Shown here in pieces: positions 37,779-46,713 of a DNA stretch of 64,000 nt; position 1 is the stretch's first letter, and every line of letters begins with the position of its first letter. The stretch lies in the NCBI GenBank assembly GCA_040219085.1, contig JAVJTC010000034.1, positions 1 to 64,000 of the forward strand. The letters are read 5' to 3'. A program made the translations under genes and the position numbers. This DNA is from Acidimicrobiales bacterium (GTDB lineage: Bacteria > Actinomycetota > Acidimicrobiia > Acidimicrobiales > JAVJTC01). Below the pieces are notes generated by a model, which was not told where the DNA came from, made no database searches, and saw only the letters and a list, made by a program, of their open reading frames with translations.

Positions 37779-39305
37779 ATGCACGGATCCGCCACTGACA
37801 TCGAGACCCCCGCTGTGGTCATGGTCGGCTTCGACGCCATGGATCCCGGCTTGGCCCGTGAGCTCGCCGAACGTGGCGAGATGCCGAATCTCAAGCGGCT
37901 GTTCGATGAGGCTGCCAACGCCGTGGTGCGCAACCCGGTCGGCTTCGTCGTCGGCGGCGTCTGGCCGTCGTTCATCACGGCCACCCCACCTTCGGTCCAC
38001 GGCCGTCACTGCTACGCGCAGCTCCGACCGGGCAGCTACGACGTCGTCGACGTGAGCCCGCTGGGAATCGAAGGAAAGCCCTGGTGGCAGCCGCTGATGG
38101 AGGCCGGAGGACGTGTGTGCAACGTGGACATCCCGTTCACGATCCCGCGCCCGGATCTCGGTGGCGTGCAGATCGTCGACTGGGGCACCCACGACCGGTG
38201 TCTGGACTTCGTGACGGTTCCGGAGGCGGAGGCCCACCGGATCCTGGACCGGTTCGGAGCCCATGTGACGCCGGGGATGTGCGATGCGGTGATCGCCCGG
38301 GGCCGATGGGCGGAGTTGCGCGACCAACTATTGACGGGCCCGGCGACGCGCACCGACATCGTCCTCGACCAGCTCGCGCGGGCGGACTTCGACCTCGTCC
38401 AGGTCGTCCACGCCGAGAGCCACTGTGTCGGTCATCAGTTCTGGAAGGTCCATGACCCGGACTACGTGGACCACGACCCACAGTTGCGGGCGCACCTCGG
38501 CGACCCACTCGTCGACGTCTACAGGGCCCTCGACACCGAGCTGGGTCGTCTTCTGGAGGCCACTGCGGGCGCACTCGTGTTCGTCCTACTCAGCCACGGG
38601 ATGGGTCCACACCACGACGGAGATCACCTCGTCCCCGAGATCCTGCGCCGGCTCGATCAGGGTGCTTCGGAGCAGTCCGGCACCGAGCATCTGTCCCGGG
38701 TCGTCCAGCGGGCGAAGGCGGCCGTGCGTCCCCTGGTCCCGGGGCGCCTACTGGACCGCTACTACGTGCGTCGTCGCAATTCGGAGACCGTGAAGGCCCA
38801 GGCTGCGCAGAACCGGGCCCGCTCGCGGTTCTTCCACCACGTGAACAACACGATGTACAGCGGCATCCGCCTCAACCTCGCCGGCCGCGAACCACAGGGG
38901 CGCGTAATGACGCACGAGGTGGACGACACCATTGCGATGTTGACGGAGCAATTCGAAGCTCTCGTCGAACACGGGACGGGTCGCCATGTCGTCAATCGCG
39001 TGATCCGCGTCTCCGACATCTACGAAGGGCCTCACCTGGTCGACCTTCCCGACCTTCTCGTCGACTGGAATCGCGATGAGCCGATCGGCGACGTGTCATC
39101 GCCGTCCGTCGGCCGCGTCCTGAGCCACTACGTGGGCCAGCGGAGCGGGGACCACCGTCTCGACGGCCGGATCTTCGTCACCGGGCCCGGTGCCGACTCT
39201 GTCGGACTGGGCGACGAGATCGACTGCCTCGAGGTCGGCCCGATGATCGCCTCCCGGGTGTTGGAGCGCCTCGGGGTCGACGATGGTGATCGCGAACCGG
39301 CGTAG
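37779..39305 (+). CDS. alkaline phosphatase superfamily phosphodiesterase/pyrophosphatase
   Basis: A 508-aa metalloenzyme. The core motifs are VMVGFDAMDPGLARELAERG (metal Asp), the nucleophile region WPSFITATPPSVHGRHCY, VVHAESHCVGHQFWKVHD and FVLLSHGMGPHHDGDHL (metal His/Asp). These place it with type I phosphodiesterases and nucleotide pyrophosphatases of COG3379 type. There is no signal peptide, so it is probably cytoplasmic. Two hairpins follow its stop codon. The substrate is unknown. Confidence 0.8.
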   Translation: MHGSATDIETPAVVMVGFDAMDPGLARELAERGEMPNLKRLFDEAANAVVRNPVGFVVGGVWPSFITATPPSVHGRHCYAQLRPGSYDVVDVSPLGIEGKPWWQPLMEAGGRVCNVDIPFTIPRPDLGGVQIVDWGTHDRCLDFVTVPEAEAHRILDRFGAHVTPGMCDAVIARGRWAELRDQLLTGPATRTDIVLDQLARADFDLVQVVHAESHCVGHQFWKVHDPDYVDHDPQLRAHLGDPLVDVYRALDTELGRLLEATAGALVFVLLSHGMGPHHDGDHLVPEILRRLDQGASEQSGTEHLSRVVQRAKAAVRPLVPGRLLDRYYVRRRNSETVKAQAAQNRARSRFFHHVNNTMYSGIRLNLAGREPQGRVMTHEVDDTIAMLTEQFEALVEHGTGRHVVNRVIRVSDIYEGPHLVDLPDLLVDWNRDEPIGDVSSPSVGRVLSHYVGQRSGDHRLDGRIFVTGPGADSVGLGDEIDCLEVGPMIASRVLERLGVDDGDREPA

Positions 39306-40686: not shown

Positions 40687-40971
40687 CTACCGCAACCCGT
40701 CCGACATGGCTGTCGCGGATTCGTCATGGACGTCGTCGATGATGCCCACGACGACCGTTCGGATCGGTCCCGACGTCACGCCCAGGATCTGACGGGCGCC
40801 CGTCCCCTCGTCGAGCAGGAGGACACGGTCGCCGATTCCCGCGTCGACGACGTCGACGGCGATCAGGTACTCCGCCGAACCCTCGAGCTCACACATGAGC
40901 AGGCGCTGCGCGTCGAAGATCTCGTGGTTGATCGTGGAGACCACCGTGCCGATGACGTTCGCGAGCTTCAC
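40687..40971 (-). CDS. EutN/CcmL-family BMC shell vertex protein (BMC-P), copy 1
   Basis: A 94-aa pentameric shell protein that caps the vertices of a bacterial microcompartment. Family features are VIGTVVSTINHEIFDAQRLL, a central AVDVVDAGIGDRVLLLDEG and the C-terminal VVGIIDDVHD. It is the last gene of the operon and its GTG overlaps the upstream EutN stop (GTGA). With the two other copies it gives three distinct vertex proteins in one locus. Confidence 0.9.
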   Translation of the reverse strand: MKLANVIGTVVSTINHEIFDAQRLLMCELEGSAEYLIAVDVVDAGIGDRVLLLDEGTGARQILGVTSGPIRTVVVGIIDDVHDESATAMSDGLR

Positions 40972-41282
40972 GGTTCGACGTGTCGACCGGTTCGACGTCC
41001 CGCCCGGCCCGTCGGGTCGAGGTCGACGTCGTCGACGATGCCCACGATGGCGTGGTCGACGGGGACGAAGGACGGTTCGAGAGCCTCGGCGGCTTCCCGC
41101 GACGCCACGTAATAGACGAGTTCGCCGGGGCCGGACATCCGCACGGCGTCGGCAGCGACCACGCACCGGCCGGCCGGCTCGCGGTTCTTGTCGAGCGGCT
41201 GGACGACGAGGAGCTTCACTCCTCGGAGGCCGGGACTCTTCACGGTTGCGACCACGGTGCCGCGTACCCGCCCGAGCAGCAT
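40968..41282 (-). CDS. EutN/CcmL-family BMC shell vertex protein (BMC-P), copy 2
   Basis: A 104-aa EutN/CcmL protein: MLLGRVRGTVVATVKSPGL, VKLLVVQPLDKN, SGPGELVYYVASREAAEAL and VDHAIVGIVDDVDLD. It is more divergent in the central loop (residues 45-75) than copy 1. ATG at 41282 overlaps the BMC-T stop by one base. The basic tail (GRAGRRTGRHVEP) is unusual for the family and could contact cargo or another shell protein, which is inference only. Confidence 0.9.
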   Translation of the reverse strand: MLLGRVRGTVVATVKSPGLRGVKLLVVQPLDKNREPAGRCVVAADAVRMSGPGELVYYVASREAAEALEPSFVPVDHAIVGIVDDVDLDPTGRAGRRTGRHVEP

Positions 41283-41893
41283 CAGGCGCTGCCCGTCCGC
41301 ACGACGCGGCGGAACCGCAGGTCTGCGGCGAGGTCGGCCCGCATCTCCGGAGCGAGTTGGGCGATCACGACCGAGTGCAGCACTCTTCCCGGGTCCAGGC
41401 GGGAGAGCCCTGCCTCCACCGCCGCCTCCGTCTCCGCGAGCACGCCGCCGAGCATGACATAACCCTTTCCGCCGAGGCCGTCGGCGAGTCGCAGGGTGGC
41501 GATCTGGACGTCCGCCGCTTTGACGGCGGCGTCCGCAGCGTCGATGGCGGCCGCCACGCCGGTGCACTCGATGATGCCGACCGCCTCGCCGTCCGCGGTT
41601 GCGGCCTGGGAGTCCGTCACAATCGCGGCTGCTACTGCAGCGGCGACGGCGGGAAGGAACACTTCGTCGATCACCACGTTCCCAGCGGTCGCACGGCCGG
41701 TCTCGAGAGCGATCTCGACGCTCGCCGTGTCACCGGTGACGGCCAGGAGGTAATGGCCCGGATGAACGGTGCCGCTGTAGATCGCCGAGACGGGAGATGC
41801 CTTCACCATCGCGTCGCCGGTGAGCACTCCGATGGCGACGGAATCGAGTTCGAGCAGACCCAGGGCCGGGTCGGCGGTCGTGGCGAGGGCCAC
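41282..41893 (-). CDS. tandem-domain BMC shell protein (BMC-T)
   Basis: A 203-aa protein with two BMC folds: ALGLLELDSVAIGVLTGDAM (about 10-29) and EAVGIIECTGVAAAIDAADA (about 103-122). Three copies form a pseudohexameric facet tile. Pore-loop candidates are SGTVHPGHY in the first domain and DGLGGKGYV in the second. BMC-T tiles can gate larger pores for cofactors or substrates. GTG start two bases after the aldehyde dehydrogenase stop. No Fe-S cysteine was seen at the pore. Confidence 0.9.
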   Translation of the reverse strand: MALATTADPALGLLELDSVAIGVLTGDAMVKASPVSAIYSGTVHPGHYLLAVTGDTASVEIALETGRATAGNVVIDEVFLPAVAAAVAAAIVTDSQAATADGEAVGIIECTGVAAAIDAADAAVKAADVQIATLRLADGLGGKGYVMLGGVLAETEAAVEAGLSRLDPGRVLHSVVIAQLAPEMRADLAADLRFRRVVRTGSA

Positions 41894-41895
41894 GT

Positions 41896-43353
41896 TCAGA
41901 CGATCCGCAGTGAACCGACGACCGTCACGCGCCGTATGCGCGAGAAAGTGCGGGGACGCGTCAGCCCTTCACCGGTGGGGCTGGCGATGGAGAACGAGGT
42001 GAATCCTTCGCCTCCCTGGCCGAGCCCGGCGAAGTTGGGGCCGTTCGCCACGAGAATCGAACAGTTCATGGCCCTCGCCATCCGGGTGATGGTGTCGACG
42101 TTGGTGGAGTGGATCGAGGCGGTGTGGCGGAAGCCGTGCTCGGTCTTCACGGCGAGTTCGATGGCGGCCTCGACATCGTTGACCCGTACGACCGGCATGA
42201 CCGGCATCATCTGCTCGGTCCAGACGAGGTTGTGTTCCTTCGGCACCTCGGCGACGAGGAGGCGCACATCCGCGTCCACCTGAACGCCGATCTCTGCGAG
42301 GATCCGCCCTGCGTCCTTGCCGATCCAGGCCGGGTTGATGGAACCGGGCTTGTTCGGTGGGCCCATCTCCCGGAAGATGACCCGCTCGAGCCGCTTGAGT
42401 TCGTGCTCCTTGAGCCTGTAGGCGCCTGCGGCGGTCATCGCCGTCACGAGGCGATCGGCGACGGAGTCGACGACGATCGTCGTCTTCTCGTCGGTGCAGA
42501 TGATGCCGTTGTCGAAGGAGGCGCCCCGCACGATGTCGTGGCCGGCCTGGTCGACGTCGGCGGTCGTGTCGACGACGGCCGGTGGATTGCCCGGACCGGC
42601 GGTGATGGCCTTCTTCGGGGTCCGCAGGGCCTCGCCGACGACGGCCGGACCGCCGGTGACGAGTAGCACCGACACATCGGGGTGGCTCATGAGCTCCCTG
42701 GCCGAGTCCAGCGTCGGATTCGGCACGGCGGTCACCAGATCTGGCGGGCCGCCGGCGGCGACGATCGCGCGGTTGAGGATCTGGATGTTCTCGACGGAGA
42801 CGTTCTTCGCGCTCGGGTGGACGTTGAAGGTGACGGCGTTGCCGGCCGACACCATCGCGATCGTGTTGTTGATGATGGTCGAGGTCGGGTTGGTCGTCGG
42901 GGTGATGGACCCGATGACGCCGTAGGGCGCGTACTCGGTGACCATCATCCCGCCGTCGCCGGTGACCGCCTGCGGCTCGAGATCCTCGGGCCCCGGTGTC
43001 TTCGTCGTCACGAGGTGGTTCTTGATGACCTTGTCCTCGGCGCGCCCGAGGCCGGTCTCCTCTCGGGCGAGGTACGCGAGTCGCTCACCCTCGCGCAGCA
43101 TCGCCTCGCGGATCGCCTCGACGATGGTCTTGCGGCTGCCGAGCCCGGACTCGCGGTAGGTCACCGAGGCGCGTTTGGCAGCCGAGACCGCCGCGTCGAT
43201 CGTGGGATGGATTCCGTCGCCGAGACGTGCGGTGACATCGGCCATCTCCGCGGCGGCGTCGAGGGCCGGCCCGGTGTGTGTGCGCCCTTCGACGGCGGCG
43301 ACGCGTCCCTTGACCCGCGAGATGATCGCCTGGATCTCGGTGTCGCTCAGCAC
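41896..43353 (-). CDS. BMC-associated CoA-acylating aldehyde dehydrogenase (PduP/EutE-like)
   Basis: A 485-aa enzyme oxidising an aldehyde to acyl-CoA with NAD+ and CoA. The catalytic Cys is in SFDNGIICTDEK, the fold core is YGVIGSITPTTNPTSTIINN, and GPGNPPAVVDTTADV is present. These match PduP/EutE rather than hydrolytic dehydrogenases. The N-terminus (LSDTEIQAIISRVKGRVAAV) is a predicted amphipathic helix set off from the fold by a linker, the pattern of an encapsulation peptide. Its likely substrate is acetaldehyde made by DERA in the same operon. GTG start at 43353. Confidence 0.93.
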   Translation of the reverse strand: MLSDTEIQAIISRVKGRVAAVEGRTHTGPALDAAAEMADVTARLGDGIHPTIDAAVSAAKRASVTYRESGLGSRKTIVEAIREAMLREGERLAYLAREETGLGRAEDKVIKNHLVTTKTPGPEDLEPQAVTGDGGMMVTEYAPYGVIGSITPTTNPTSTIINNTIAMVSAGNAVTFNVHPSAKNVSVENIQILNRAIVAAGGPPDLVTAVPNPTLDSARELMSHPDVSVLLVTGGPAVVGEALRTPKKAITAGPGNPPAVVDTTADVDQAGHDIVRGASFDNGIICTDEKTTIVVDSVADRLVTAMTAAGAYRLKEHELKRLERVIFREMGPPNKPGSINPAWIGKDAGRILAEIGVQVDADVRLLVAEVPKEHNLVWTEQMMPVMPVVRVNDVEAAIELAVKTEHGFRHTASIHSTNVDTITRMARAMNCSILVANGPNFAGLGQGGEGFTSFSIASPTGEGLTRPRTFSRIRRVTVVGSLRIV

Positions 43354-43369
43354 GGTTCGACCTGAGCCG

Positions 43370-43657
43370 TCACTTCGACCACACCGTGTCGCCGTCGACC
43401 TCCCACGTGTCGACGATCGCCATGATGACGGCGTCGACGGGACGGTCGCGGGTGGCGGCCGTCTGGCGGGCGGAACTTCCCGACGCGTAGAGGACGACCT
43501 CGCCGACGCCCGCGCCGACGGAGTCGACGGCTACGACGTAGCCGCCGGTCTCTGTGTCGTCCACGTCGAGTTGGCGCACGAGCAGCAGCGTCGACCCCTC
43601 GAGCAACGGCTCCTTACGACTGGCCACCACGGTTCCGGCGACCCTTCCGAGGAGCAC
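43370..43657 (-). CDS. EutN/CcmL-family BMC shell vertex protein (BMC-P), copy 3
   Basis: A 95-aa vertex protein: [52 protein letters not shown] and [15 protein letters not shown]. It is separated from copies 1 and 2 by the dehydrogenase and a BMC-T gene, so the duplication is not recent. GTG start one base after the BMC-H stop and 16 bases before the dehydrogenase start. Confidence 0.92.
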
Positions 43658-43658
43658 G

Positions 43659-43961
43659 TCAGCCGAGCTCGTTCTGCGCGTCCTGCGCGCGGCCCAGCGG
43701 CAGGACCAGGTCGATGTTGAGGTGCGGGCGGGCGATGACGTGGCTGGCGATGACCTCGCCGACCTTCTCCGCGCCGCGTACCCCGGCGTCGATGGCCGCC
43801 TTCACGGCCGCGACATCACCCCGGACCACCGCGGTCACGTAGCCCCCGCCGGTCTCGGCGTAGGAGACGAGCTCCACCTTGGCCGCCTTCACCATGGCAT
43901 CGGCCCCCTCGACCATCGCCGCGAAGCTCCTGCATTCGATCATGCCGAGCGCATCAGCCAT
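43659..43961 (-). CDS. hexameric BMC shell protein (BMC-H)
   Basis: A 100-aa single-domain BMC protein, the only BMC-H in the locus and thus the main facet tile. Family features: [20 protein letters not shown], then [20 protein letters not shown] (pore loop around ETGGGY) and [13 protein letters not shown]. The C-terminal [17 protein letters not shown] is typical. The ATG has an AGGGAG-type ribosome site, and the upstream 69-base gap contains a hairpin (43994-44016), the only long gap in the operon. Confidence 0.95.
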
Positions 43962-43993
43962 TCCTGACTCCCTTCTCGTTTCCGAGTCTCATG

Positions 43994-44016
43994 GACGCCC
44001 GACTCAGCCGGGCGTC
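43994..44016 (-). promoter_or_regulatory. intra-operon hairpin upstream of BMC-H
   Basis: An 8-bp stem (GACGCCCG with its complement) and a 7-base loop lie between the BMC-T stop and the BMC-H start. Placed before the most abundant shell protein, it may be an mRNA processing or stabilising element; partial termination is the alternative. Confidence 0.45.
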
Positions 44017-44030
44017 GTGGATCACTGCGT

Positions 44031-44657
44031 TCACGGTGTCCGTCCCTCGAGTCCCTCGAGGGCCGCGACGGCGGCCTGCCAGCCGACGTCGATGTCGCGC
44101 TCCTCGCCGCCCAGGTACACCCGTCCGACCGCACCGTACGCCCGGACTTCCAGGACGTTGATGTCCGCAGCCTTCTCGGCTTCGTTGGTGGCGAGCGCGA
44201 TGTAGGCGGCGGGCTCACATTCGAGCGTGTAGAGGGTCTGACCGGGAATGATCATCTGCCCGTGGCGGACGCGGTTGATGAGCTGCGCGTGGTGGTCGTC
44301 GATGCGCCGGATGATCTGGCTCGACAGGATCTTCGGCTTGATGCGCTGGGACTCCGACAGGCCGACCGCTTCGAGGATCGCCTCGCCCGCGGCGCGGGTC
44401 TCGGCCTGGTCGGGGGAGTGCACCTCCAACATCCCGTACACGCGCTCGATGATCTGCATGCCGGGGCGTACCGAGGTGGACTTCATGGCGACGTCGGTCA
44501 GGCGGTTGATCTCGATGCCGGGTGCGATCTCCACGTAGAGCGACGCGTCGCCGGCCAGCGGGAGGAAACCCTGCGACACGGTCCCGATGAAGGCGGCGTG
44601 TTGGGGTTGGAGGTTGTCGAGGAAGACGAACGATCGAAGGTCAATACCCGTCGTCAC
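44031..44657 (-). CDS. tandem-domain BMC shell protein, probable stacking type (BMC-T)
   Basis: A 208-aa BMC-T distinct from the other copy. The first domain has [20 protein letters not shown] and [20 protein letters not shown]; the second has [40 protein letters not shown] and [11 protein letters not shown]. This resembles the BMC-T proteins that stack as double trimers with gated pores. The GTG start lies 17 bases inside the end of deoC, so it is translationally coupled. The stacking assignment is by remembered similarity only. Confidence 0.88.
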
Positions 44658-45489
44658 CGGTGGCTCCTTGTGTCTCGTTGACGATCTGCACACCGGCGGA
44701 GGCCCCGATCCGGGTGGCGCCGGCGGCGATCATGTCCTTCGCGTCGGCGGCGGTTCGCACACCGCCGGAGGCTTTCACGCCCATCTCGGGTCCCACGGTC
44801 TCGCGCATCAGAGCGACGTCGTAGACGGTGGCGCCGCCACCGCCGAATCCGGTGGATGTCTTGACGAAGTCGGCCTTTGCAGCCTTGGCGATGGCCGAGG
44901 CGACGACCTTCTCCTCATCGGTGAGCAGCGCCGTCTCCAAGATGACCTTGACGATCGCGCCGGCCTCGTGCGCCGAGTCGACCACCTTCTCGATGTCCTC
45001 GCGGACGAGATCGAGATGGCCGGATCTGAGTGCTCCGATGTTGAGGACCATGTCGACCTCGCGTGCACCGTCGCGTAGTGCCTGCCGTGCCTCCATCGCC
45101 TTGATGCGCGGGGTGGTGGCACCGAGGGGAAAGCCGATGACGGTGCAGACCTTGACGTCGGACCCGCGGAGGTTGCCGGCGCACCGTGCGACCCAGGTCG
45201 GGTTCACGCACACGGAGGCGAAGTGGTACTCGGCCGCCTCGGAACACAACGTGTCGATCTCGTCGGCCGTGGCATCGGGCTTGAGGAGCGTGTGGTCGAT
45301 GTAGCGCGCCATCTCGAGGGGGACCGAGGCCGCGTCACCGTGGTACGCCACCCGGTCGGCGCCGTTGGCGACCGCGTTGGCCACCTTCTCGGGCGTCTCG
45401 CAGATGTCGGTGCGGGCGGCCAGTACCGACAGCACCTCCTGGGTGATCAACTCGACGAGCATCTCGCGATCGAGCGGGGTGGTGGTCAC
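44641..45489 (-). CDS. deoC: deoxyribose-phosphate aldolase (DERA), BMC-associated
   Basis: A 282-aa class I aldolase that splits 2-deoxyribose-5-phosphate into acetaldehyde and glyceraldehyde-3-phosphate. Schiff-base Lys is in [14 protein letters not shown], the second Lys in [15 protein letters not shown], and [15 protein letters not shown] starts the core barrel near residue 65. The extra N-terminal 60 residues, with helix [20 protein letters not shown], look like an encapsulation peptide plus linker. GTG start overlaps rpiB (GTGA) and has GAGGTGGGG upstream. DERA defines the SPU class of microcompartments. Confidence 0.93.
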
Positions 45490-46139
45490 GCCCCACCTCG
45501 CGACGGTTCGAGGAGGCGGGAGTACCGATGTTCGAAGTCGTCGATCATGGCGACCCGTCGGGCGTGACGGTCGGGGCCCCAGGAAACCGACAGCCACTCC
45601 TCGACGATCTGCCAGGCGAGGGCGGGACCGGTGAGCCCGGCGCCGAGCGTCATGACGTTGGCGTGGTTGTGCTCGCGGCTGTTTCGCGCCGTGGAGAGGT
45701 CGTAACACAGCGCGGCCCGCACGCCGGGCACCTTGTTGGCCACCATGGCCGAGCCGATGCCGGCCCCGTCGATGATGATTCCCGCGCCGACGGCGCCCTC
45801 GGCGACCAGGCGGGCGACGGCGTGCGCGACGTCGGGATAGTCGACCGGATGGGGGCTGTCGGTGCCACAGTCGACGACGCGGTGTCCGGCGACGGCGAGC
45901 TTGCCCGCCAGGTCCTGTTTCAGCGCGAAGCCACCGTGGTCGGCGCCGATCGCGATTCCCGCCGACGCGGACCCGTCACCGGGCCGGCCTCCCGTTTCCA
46001 CGGCGGTGGAGTCCGACAGGTGCATGCGGGTGCCGGGGTCGGCCGCGTCGGTGGAGAGGTCCGCTTCCAGTACGCCCTGGGTGACGCGGCGCACGATGGC
46101 ACGGATCTCGTCGGCGGGGAGCGGTGAGTGATCGGCCAT
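45486..46139 (-). CDS. rpiB: RpiB-family ribose-5-phosphate isomerase, BMC-associated
   Basis: A 217-aa sugar-phosphate isomerase. The fold motifs are [44 protein letters not shown] and [16 protein letters not shown]. At the position of the E. coli catalytic Cys (CGTGIG) the sequence is DGAGIG, so Asp replaces Cys. An N-terminal extension of about 60 residues starts with the amphipathic segment [20 protein letters not shown], a likely encapsulation peptide, followed by a Gly/Ser/Asp linker. First gene of the BMC operon; ATG at 46139. Confidence 0.88.
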
Positions 46140-46175: not shown

Positions 46176-46203
46176 GGTCAGCCACCGCGGTCGTGTGGCG
46201 GGC

Positions 46204-46209
46204 TACGTT
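46204..46209 (+). promoter_or_regulatory. candidate -10 box of coiled-coil gene
   Basis: TACGTT ends 6 bases before the ATG at 46216, consistent with a leaderless transcript divergent from the BMC operon. Confidence 0.4.
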
Positions 46210-46215
46210 CGATCT

Positions 46216-46713
46216 ATGGAACCCACGACGCGTTGGGAGACGGCGGCGCTACGTGAGAGCGGCGGGCGTCCACGTCCGAGAACGACTCAGACCGGTGGTC
46301 ATGGCGGCGGCGGCGAACGCGTCCCCACCGGGTCTGATCCGGTCGCCGACGCCGATCTTGCACCGCGGACACCGGAGATGGGCGCGGTCGAGGGGGAGGC
46401 CCTTCTCGTACCGCTGAGTGCGTGGAATCGGATGCTCGACCAGTTGGGCAACCTCCACGAGGCCGGTCGGGAACTGGCGGAGGCTCGCGAGCGCGCCGCG
46501 CGGGCCGAGACCGAGGCGGCATTCCTGCGGGAACGTCTCGCCGACCTACGTGAGGCCGGGACGGCACAACAGCCCCGGGCCGAGGCCGGCGCGGATGAAC
46601 GCGGCGGAGCCGACACGGTGGGTGTCGGCTCCGAATCGGGTCATGGGTTGTTGGGGGTCGGTCGTCGGGCCGCCGCAGCGGCCGGCGGGTGGATCCGCCG
46701 ACGCGGCGGCTGA
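46216..46713 (+). CDS. coiled-coil protein divergent from the BMC operon
   Basis: A 165-aa protein of unknown family. Low-complexity N-terminus (1-62), then LLVPLSAWNRMLDQLGNLHE and a coiled coil (about 80-118, ELAEARERAARAETEAAFLR) rich in Glu/Arg/Ala, then a glycine-rich stretch and a basic end (GWIRRRGG). There is no membrane helix or signal peptide. It shares a 76-base promoter region with the BMC operon, so it could be a BMC accessory or positioning factor, but this is only position-based. GTG 46195 is an alternative start. Confidence 0.6.
   Translation: MEPTTRWETAALRESGGRPRPRTTQTGGHGGGGERVPTGSDPVADADLAPRTPEMGAVEGEALLVPLSAWNRMLDQLGNLHEAGRELAEARERAARAETEAAFLRERLADLREAGTAQQPRAEAGADERGGADTVGVGSESGHGLLGVGRRAAAAAGGWIRRRGG

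Follow-up and report, generated by a model that had tools for sequence, protein, structure and literature searches.

This study was concerned with a nine-gene operon at positions 40687-46139 (minus strand) of a 64,000-nucleotide stretch, here called the window, from the Acidimicrobiales bacterium assembly GCA_040219085.1 (contig JAVJTC010000034.1). The operon very probably encodes a bacterial microcompartment (BMC) of the sugar-phosphate-utilising (SPU) class that acts on 2-deoxyribose-5-phosphate (dR5P). Judged by its gene content it is a member of an already published class, and the new point is its RpiB homologue. According to its aligned residues, this protein keeps the binding and ring-opening parts of an RpiB active site and has lost both isomerising parts (C66D and T68A). 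On balance it is probably not a canonical ribose-5-phosphate (R5P) isomerase and has some other job instead. The C66D/T68A replacements of an SPU RpiB were not found in print among the matches listed from the open-access literature.

In RpiB and LacB a Cys removes the C2 proton, a Thr shuttles the proton from one to the other of O2 and O1, and the furanose ring is opened by His99/102 (PMC4783025, PMC3755991). Loss of the Cys (C69S, C69A or LacB C65A) abolishes activity, and T67A lowers that of LacB about 20-fold (PMC4783025, PMC3755991). In M. tuberculosis RpiB, Glu75 serves as the base (PMC4783025). In a gapless alignment to solved RpiBs, the window RpiB reads I-D-G-A-G-I-G-S where E. coli has I-C-G-T-G-V-G-I. 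It carries Asp66, Ala68 and Ser72, and so has neither of the catalytic bases noted above (Cys66 or the M. tuberculosis-type Glu) nor a Thr/Ser at position 68. Relatives of the operon were the best 80 of 497 confirmed loci in a search led by its CcmP-like shell protein. In the alignment, Asp66 and Ala68 occurred together in all 70 readable copies among 72 operon RpiBs, two of which are truncated. The rest of the pocket was retained: Asp9, His10 and Gly12 in 69 of 69 readable copies, Tyr43 in 70 of 70, His99, Asn100, Arg133 and Arg137 in all 72, and Arg97 and His134 in 71 of 72. The window protein belongs to the RpiB family (PF02502, 164.7 bits; NF004051, 157.8 bits against a cut-off of 135; TIGR00689, 146.1 against 88.3), and it falls short of both RpiB equivalog cut-offs (TIGR01120, 128.9 against 138.65; TIGR02133, 128.4 against 168.2). 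Its predicted fold is intact, with a predicted local distance difference test score of 92.9 and, against structure 3he8, a Z score of 27.8 and a root-mean-square deviation of 0.8 A over 148 residues. In a rapid tree of 64 rows, for which the motif columns were retained, a branch with an SH-like approximate likelihood ratio test value of 94 separated the 33 altered RpiBs from the rest.

Canonical RpiBs (E. coli, C. thermocellum 3he8) share with the operon protein its predicted fold and its phosphate and ring-opening residues, and it differs from them in C66D, T68A, an N-terminal helix extension and its pairing with deoxyribose-5-phosphate aldolase (DERA, DeoC). Non-BMC RpiBs neighbouring the operons had Cys66 in nine of nine cases. 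Twenty-six genomes of other loci were searched, and 24 of them gave 47 PF02502 matches, of which 41 were read. The 18 beside DeoC were all Asp-Ala-Ser (D-A-S) and had already been counted among the 80 loci; the other 23, from outside compartments, comprised 18 with Cys and Thr/Ser and five with Gly, Ser and Glu. Judged by contig and frame length, the six unread matches seem to repeat operon copies counted in the 72. The altered copy was the sole PF02502 match in five of the 24 genomes, those of L069, L075, L077, L079 and L080 (RpiA was not searched). The window's genome has three RpiB-family matches, the operon copy, a Glu-type copy on contig C23 and a Cys-type copy on contig C29. This last copy (G000:C29:100533-100886, L089) keeps Cys and Thr and has Trp at the expected ring-opening His99. 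LacA of the LacAB galactose-6-phosphate isomerase, like the operon RpiB, has Asp at the Cys position (GIVIDAYGAG). However, LacA has Leu for His10 and Phe for Tyr43 and pairs with LacB, whereas the operon RpiB keeps both His10 and Tyr43. The LacA half does not supply the base, and the active sites lie between subunits (PMC3755991).

The altered RpiB is closely tied to DeoC. The two are fused into one open reading frame (ORF) in 12 of 72 loci (for example, L055). A nucleotide pattern for the RpiB motif was searched in a second sample, 247 genomes from the window's class, which overlaps with the 80 loci. The pattern matched 48 places in 46 genomes, and 43 of these places, each in a different genome, have a gene for a BMC-P vertex protein at a start-to-start distance of 2045-2425 bases. 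The other five were four places that are not RpiB and one contig-end RpiB (G210). BMC-P was found in 59 of the 247 genomes. These 59 include the 43 genomes above; of the others, G058 and G109 carry D-G-A-G-L-G instead of the exact pattern, G156 and G183 end at a contig edge before RpiB, and the pattern match in G237 is not RpiB; stretches of G134, G176, G189 and G212 and the BMC-P of G237 were left unread. Another seven of the 59 (G074, G014, G199, G225, G144, G106 and G197) had shell genes without RpiB or DeoC in the stretch read, and probably hold other BMC types within the same class. Among the same-order genomes listed, the RpiB motif adjoined BMC-P only in the window's own genome.

A DeoC-led sample was taken from the class of L079 (Anaerolineae), in which 137 of 150 genomes had a match and the 30 best-scoring loci were used. 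RpiB adjoined DeoC in 14 of these 30 loci and was D-A-S in all 14 (L176 being from L079's own genome). This matches the result from the loci picked by the shell protein. A shell gene lay within the locus of about 3.6 kb in seven of the 14 pairs. For the other seven, shell genes were present in a wider stretch for two, the contig was too short for one and none was detected for four. These four pairs (L179, L180, L181 and L185, all Anaerolineae) led to the rejection of the idea that the altered RpiB occurs only inside shell operons; the stretches covered 2.3-9.6 kb on each side, and the profiles were built from the operon shell proteins (E 1e-4), which divergent shell proteins could escape. The same four genomes have three BMC-P matches each elsewhere, and in G370 two of the three share the contig of the pair at a distance of about 30 kb. 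The narrower statement, that the altered RpiB pairs with DeoC in shell-bearing genomes, holds for the loci read. Because some pairs showed no shell gene in these stretches, the constant partner of the altered RpiB is DeoC.

By title, the 80 related loci fall in nine named phyla: 42 in Actinomycetota (mostly Acidimicrobiia), nine in Chloroflexota, seven in Acidobacteriota, six in Gemmatimonadota, three in Planctomycetota, three in Fidelibacterota (Neomarinimicrobiota), two in Calditrichota and one each in Kiritimatiellota and Fraseribacteriota, with six lacking a phylum. All nine genes were present in 53 loci, and all 53 had the order of the window. The other 27 loci, many of which end at contig edges, likewise keep this order for the genes present. 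The order common to the 53 full loci therefore indicates that the operon is not a chance arrangement.

The first-pass annotation of this DNA had placed nine overlapping or closely spaced ORFs here and had named them as rpiB, deoC, two BMC-T, one BMC-H, three EutN (BMC-P) and a coenzyme A (CoA)-acylating aldehyde dehydrogenase (AldDH). All nine were present where it had located them, and family scans bore out each identity. In gene order, from 46139 down to 40687, they are as follows.

45486 to 46139, minus strand: rpiB, RpiB homologue of 217 residues (PF02502 match starting at residue 62, 164.7 bits; aligned to RpiBs of the PDB without gaps)
45750 to 45770, minus strand: codons of the D-G-A-G-I-G-S loop (E. 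coli positions 66-72; pattern match at 45751-45773)
44641 to 45489, minus strand: deoC, deoxyribose-5-phosphate aldolase of 282 residues (TIGR00126, 283.4 bits; catalytic Lys, Lys and Asp kept)
44031 to 44657, minus strand: CcmP-like BMC-Tdp shell trimer of 208 residues (NF053796, E 3e-101)
43659 to 43961, minus strand: BMC-H shell hexamer of 100 residues (PF00936, 96.8 bits)
43370 to 43657, minus strand: BMC-P vertex protein 1 of 95 residues (PF03319, 101.9 bits)
41896 to 43353, minus strand: CoA-acylating AldDH of 485 residues with catalytic Cys286 (NF011927, 612.9 bits; the profile includes the N-terminus)
41282 to 41893, minus strand: BMC-Ts tandem-domain shell protein of 203 residues, weakly PduT-like (two PF00936 stretches, 109 bits)
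40968 to 41282, minus strand: BMC-P vertex protein 2 of 104 residues (PF03319, 86.0 bits)
40687 to 40971, minus strand: BMC-P vertex protein 3 of 94 residues (PF03319, 66.6 bits)

With the starts chosen here, rpiB and deoC share 4 nucleotides and deoC and the first BMC-T gene share 17. The annotation can be refined in that, by their profile scores, the two BMC-Ts differ in kind, one being CcmP-type and the other a weakly PduT-like tandem protein. The closest model to the former is NF053796, which gave 337.4 bits, just under its equivalog cut-off of 340, over 204 of 213 positions; no family matched this protein in the Pfam scan. The tandem protein scored 92 bits against TIGR02526, under the cut-off of 250.3. 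DeoC passes the TIGR00126 equivalog cut-off of 117.3 and has Lys210, Lys239 and Asp146, which we take to be the Schiff-base Lys, the second Lys and the catalytic Asp. Both lysines were kept in 78 of 78 rows (window counted), and the AldDH Cys in 74 of 76, the other two having no letter at this position. The window's genome (3.77 Mb) has a single DeoC match, the operon copy, and the rest of it gave no PF00936 or PF03319 match. Gene absences in this genome are uncertain because it is only 96.4% complete.

Thirty ORFs flanking the operon in the window were scanned, and none was a deoxyribose gene. A divergent ORF upstream of rpiB (46195-46713, plus strand) matches the C-terminal coil of a gene upstream of 10 related operons, which by eye has a helix-turn-helix-like region and a coil. 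The aligned part of the window ORF is without the helix-turn-helix-like region, and the ORF is possibly a truncated regulator. Beyond the 3' end of the operon, on the other strand, 37779-39305 (plus) encodes a member of the Type I phosphodiesterase/nucleotide pyrophosphatase family (PF01663, E 1e-9), which may have a link to nucleotide breakdown. In the related loci, 85 of 209 same-strand flanking ORFs were scanned, from L045 on, mostly in other phyla and with none from L007-L044. Five were Sugar-bind (SorC-type) regulators, two of them in L052 and L083, and three were PNP_UDP_1 proteins. DeoR of B. subtilis belongs to the SorC family, and its effector is dR5P (PMC11229326). By eye, a cluster of flanking genes resembling ATP-binding cassette ATPases is represented in 15 loci. 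Variation was also seen in DeoC. For example, in L188 (G371:C105) two DeoC-family genes in tandem come after RpiB, along with a BMC-P gene, and G308 also has two adjacent DeoC matches. In addition, 27 of 75 related DeoCs (e.g. L067, L052, L083 and L019) have at least three cysteines ahead of the aldolase domain (CxC/CxxC), which suggests a metal or Fe-S site, and the window's DeoC has one.

The first-pass annotation had also assigned the operon to the SPU class, and gene families lead us to the same assignment. This agrees with the published content of a DeoC-type pfam01791 aldolase, an RpiB-type pfam02502 protein, an AldDH and shell genes (PMC8217296, PMC4207490). The pfam02502 protein of SPU loci has been described as isomerising R5P (Sutter 2021, PMC8217296). 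The phosphotransacylase PTAC (PduL) was present in all of the first SPU loci except those of Marinimicrobia (Axen 2014, PMC4207490), and is not a defining gene in PMC8217296; by this feature of the first loci, the window's genome departs from them. SPU-like loci of Latescibacteria carry an aldolase of class II instead (PMC4207490). The operon resembles SPU loci in its DeoC aldolase, RpiB-type protein, AldDH, shell genes and three BMC-Ps, and has a CcmP-like BMC-Tdp as do SPU2 and SPU3. It differs in that the nine genes include no PTAC, PduS or alcohol dehydrogenase, and in that its RpiB is without the catalytic Cys and Thr, a trait shared across the loci read here. The expected chemistry, from dR5P to acetaldehyde and glyceraldehyde-3-phosphate and on to acetyl-CoA, stands as an expectation, since the catalytic residues of DERA and AldDH are intact.

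All three enzymes of the window have an N-terminal helix resembling an encapsulation peptide: RpiB within an extension of about 60 residues, DeoC, and AldDH (DTEIQAIISRVKGRVA). In the relatives, similarity to the window helix was compared with that of shuffled N-termini, using the 99.9th percentile as the threshold; contig-edge rows were left out, as were fused rows for RpiB and DeoC. The threshold was exceeded by 41 of 58 RpiBs, 50 of 59 DeoCs and 61 of 75 AldDHs. The helix was found in none of 23 non-compartment RpiBs (nine of which were too short upstream to score). Several of the RpiB-DeoC fusions by eye have a helix in the linker and none ahead of RpiB. The RpiBs of L060, L075, L079 and L188 share a TPLARQxAxER-like N-terminal stretch, which follows the helix tag in L188 and occurs without a helix in the others.

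The explanation that best accommodates these results, and to which we give about an even chance as a whole, is an SPU metabolosome whose RpiB homologue is no ordinary R5P isomerase; that it opens the ring of dR5P is the most likely role but in itself has less than even odds. The genes, residues, predicted fold, distribution and RpiB-DeoC fusion were observed, and from them we infer the encapsulation, direction, ring-opening and cofactor steps. The shell would consist of one BMC-H, one CcmP-like BMC-Tdp, one BMC-Ts and three BMC-Ps around three enzymes, and the RpiB homologue, DERA and AldDH would be brought into the lumen by their N-terminal helices. The dR5P, derived from DNA or deoxynucleosides, would enter the shell. 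The RpiB homologue would bind it, open the furanose ring with His99 as the acid and Asp66 possibly as its partner, and hand the open aldehyde to DERA. DERA would cleave it to glyceraldehyde-3-phosphate and acetaldehyde, and AldDH would convert the acetaldehyde to acetyl-CoA with formation of NADH, which would draw the retro-aldol reaction forward and stop acetaldehyde from escaping. Acetyl-CoA and CoA would then cross the shell, perhaps via BMC-Tdp. The substrate has no oxygen on C2. Because of this, dR5P cannot undergo aldose-ketose isomerisation, and the Thr that contacts O2 would have no partner on it. Tentatively, and at somewhat less than even odds, SPU compartments may have a third kind of RpiB-family active site, marked by the Asp-Gly-Ala loop; such an enzyme would not isomerise but would be devoted to opening the dR5P ring and presenting the substrate, as a unit with DERA. 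Mutarotases of the RbsD type, with FucU and RhaM presumably further examples from catabolic operons, have what we take to be a different fold from the operon RpiB. The likeness is in the proposed role, as RbsD supplies its sugar in the ring form that the following enzyme uses (PMC5522865).

No PduL match and no Pta (phosphate acetyltransferase) match were found in the window's genome, and PduL was found in only one of 47 genomes with related loci (mostly metagenome bins). Thus, the standard recycling of CoA inside the shell by PduL does not fit most of these loci. Since neither enzyme was found in the window's genome, acetyl-CoA and CoA probably cross the shell, as would NADH and NAD, possibly via the BMC-Tdp. 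For this type of shell protein, sugar phosphates or large cofactors have been suggested (PMC8217296). The near-absence of PduL in related genomes was not found in print among the open-access matches listed.

Several observations weigh against RpiB as a dR5P ring opener in a shell. First, and most important, the DERA study that notes dR5P to be 99.8% furanose, with less than 0.2% open aldehyde, also gives 40-100 per second for opening of the R5P ring; it does not foresee that this step would be rate-limiting for dR5P cleavage, and DERA may itself be able to open the ring (PMC5975929). The need for a ring opener is weakened for this reason; it could be speculated that opening matters more at the enzyme concentrations within a shell. 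Secondly, L084 and L085 (Chloroflexota; Caldilineaceae and Anaerolineae) have DeoC and CcmP-like shell genes with no PF02502 match in the locus or genome, so RpiB is not always needed. Third, because the altered copies lie on a single tree branch, the 70 represent one origin followed by conservation and not 70 events. As to encapsulation, 17 of the 58 operon RpiBs are under the helix threshold, some clearly with another N-terminus, and the linkers of the 12 RpiB-DeoC fusions all score below the DeoC threshold of 29, the highest at 17. Hydrophobic moments over 16 residues were tried as proof of encapsulation peptides and rejected, as only RpiB passed (the fraction of shuffles with a moment at least as high was 0.0085 for RpiB, 0.87 for DeoC and 0.62 for AldDH). 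Lastly, the window RpiB passes two subfamily cut-offs (NF004051 and TIGR00689), and Asp66 or Ser72 might act as a substitute base.

These last points lead to the strongest rival, which we consider possible but rather unlikely: that the altered RpiB still interconverts an aldose and a ketose, using Asp66 as base and either Ser72 or water for the proton shuttle, and does so beside the DERA route on R5P from RNA debris or on another sugar phosphate. The base can move, as in M. tuberculosis RpiB (PMC4783025), and one copy in the window's genome is of the M. tuberculosis kind. The pocket for the substrate remains, and in the five of 24 genomes noted above the altered copy is the sole PF02502 match. 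However, the base and the shuttle Thr are both changed in all 70 readable copies, and Asp is also found at this site in LacA, whose half of LacAB gives no base. The protein is paired with, and in places fused to, DERA, whose substrate cannot be isomerised, and on C23 the window's genome encodes a separate protein likely to isomerise R5P. We consider it improbable that the RpiB homologue has no catalytic role and serves as a scaffold or sensor for arranging DERA and AldDH in the lumen. The helix tag in 41 of 58 copies, the 12 fusions and the two loci without RpiB would suit such a role, but the pocket residues D9, H10, Y43, H99, N100, R133 and R137 are invariant where readable, which would be needless for a pure scaffold.

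Two further proposals are very improbable. One is that the altered RpiB is active only when combined with a canonical RpiB in a hetero-oligomer, in the way of LacA and LacB. In its favour are the same Asp in LacA and active sites between subunits (PMC3755991), but the helix is absent from the canonical copies scored, five of 24 genomes have no second PF02502 match, and His10 is kept, unlike in LacA. The compartment could run in reverse or on other substrates, with DERA, which is reversible (PMC8403123), making deoxysugars or with another aldehyde, and the forward chemistry is itself predicted from genes; against this, AldDH would drain acetaldehyde, and Sugar-bind regulators and PNP_UDP_1 phosphorylases are among the flanking ORFs of the relatives.

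With PduL nearly absent, these loci can serve as a test case of a metabolosome that has to manage when the usual enzyme for recycling CoA is missing. The SPU pathway as published has an isomerase for which the deoxyribose route holds no obvious step, and the residue pattern described here offers a way out. If RpiB is a dR5P ring opener, this enzyme activity has so far gone unrecognised, and it would account for the retention of an RpiB beside, and its fusion to, the aldolase of a substrate that cannot be isomerised. The role of RpiB in the SPU compartment thereby becomes a simple assay question with two named point mutations.

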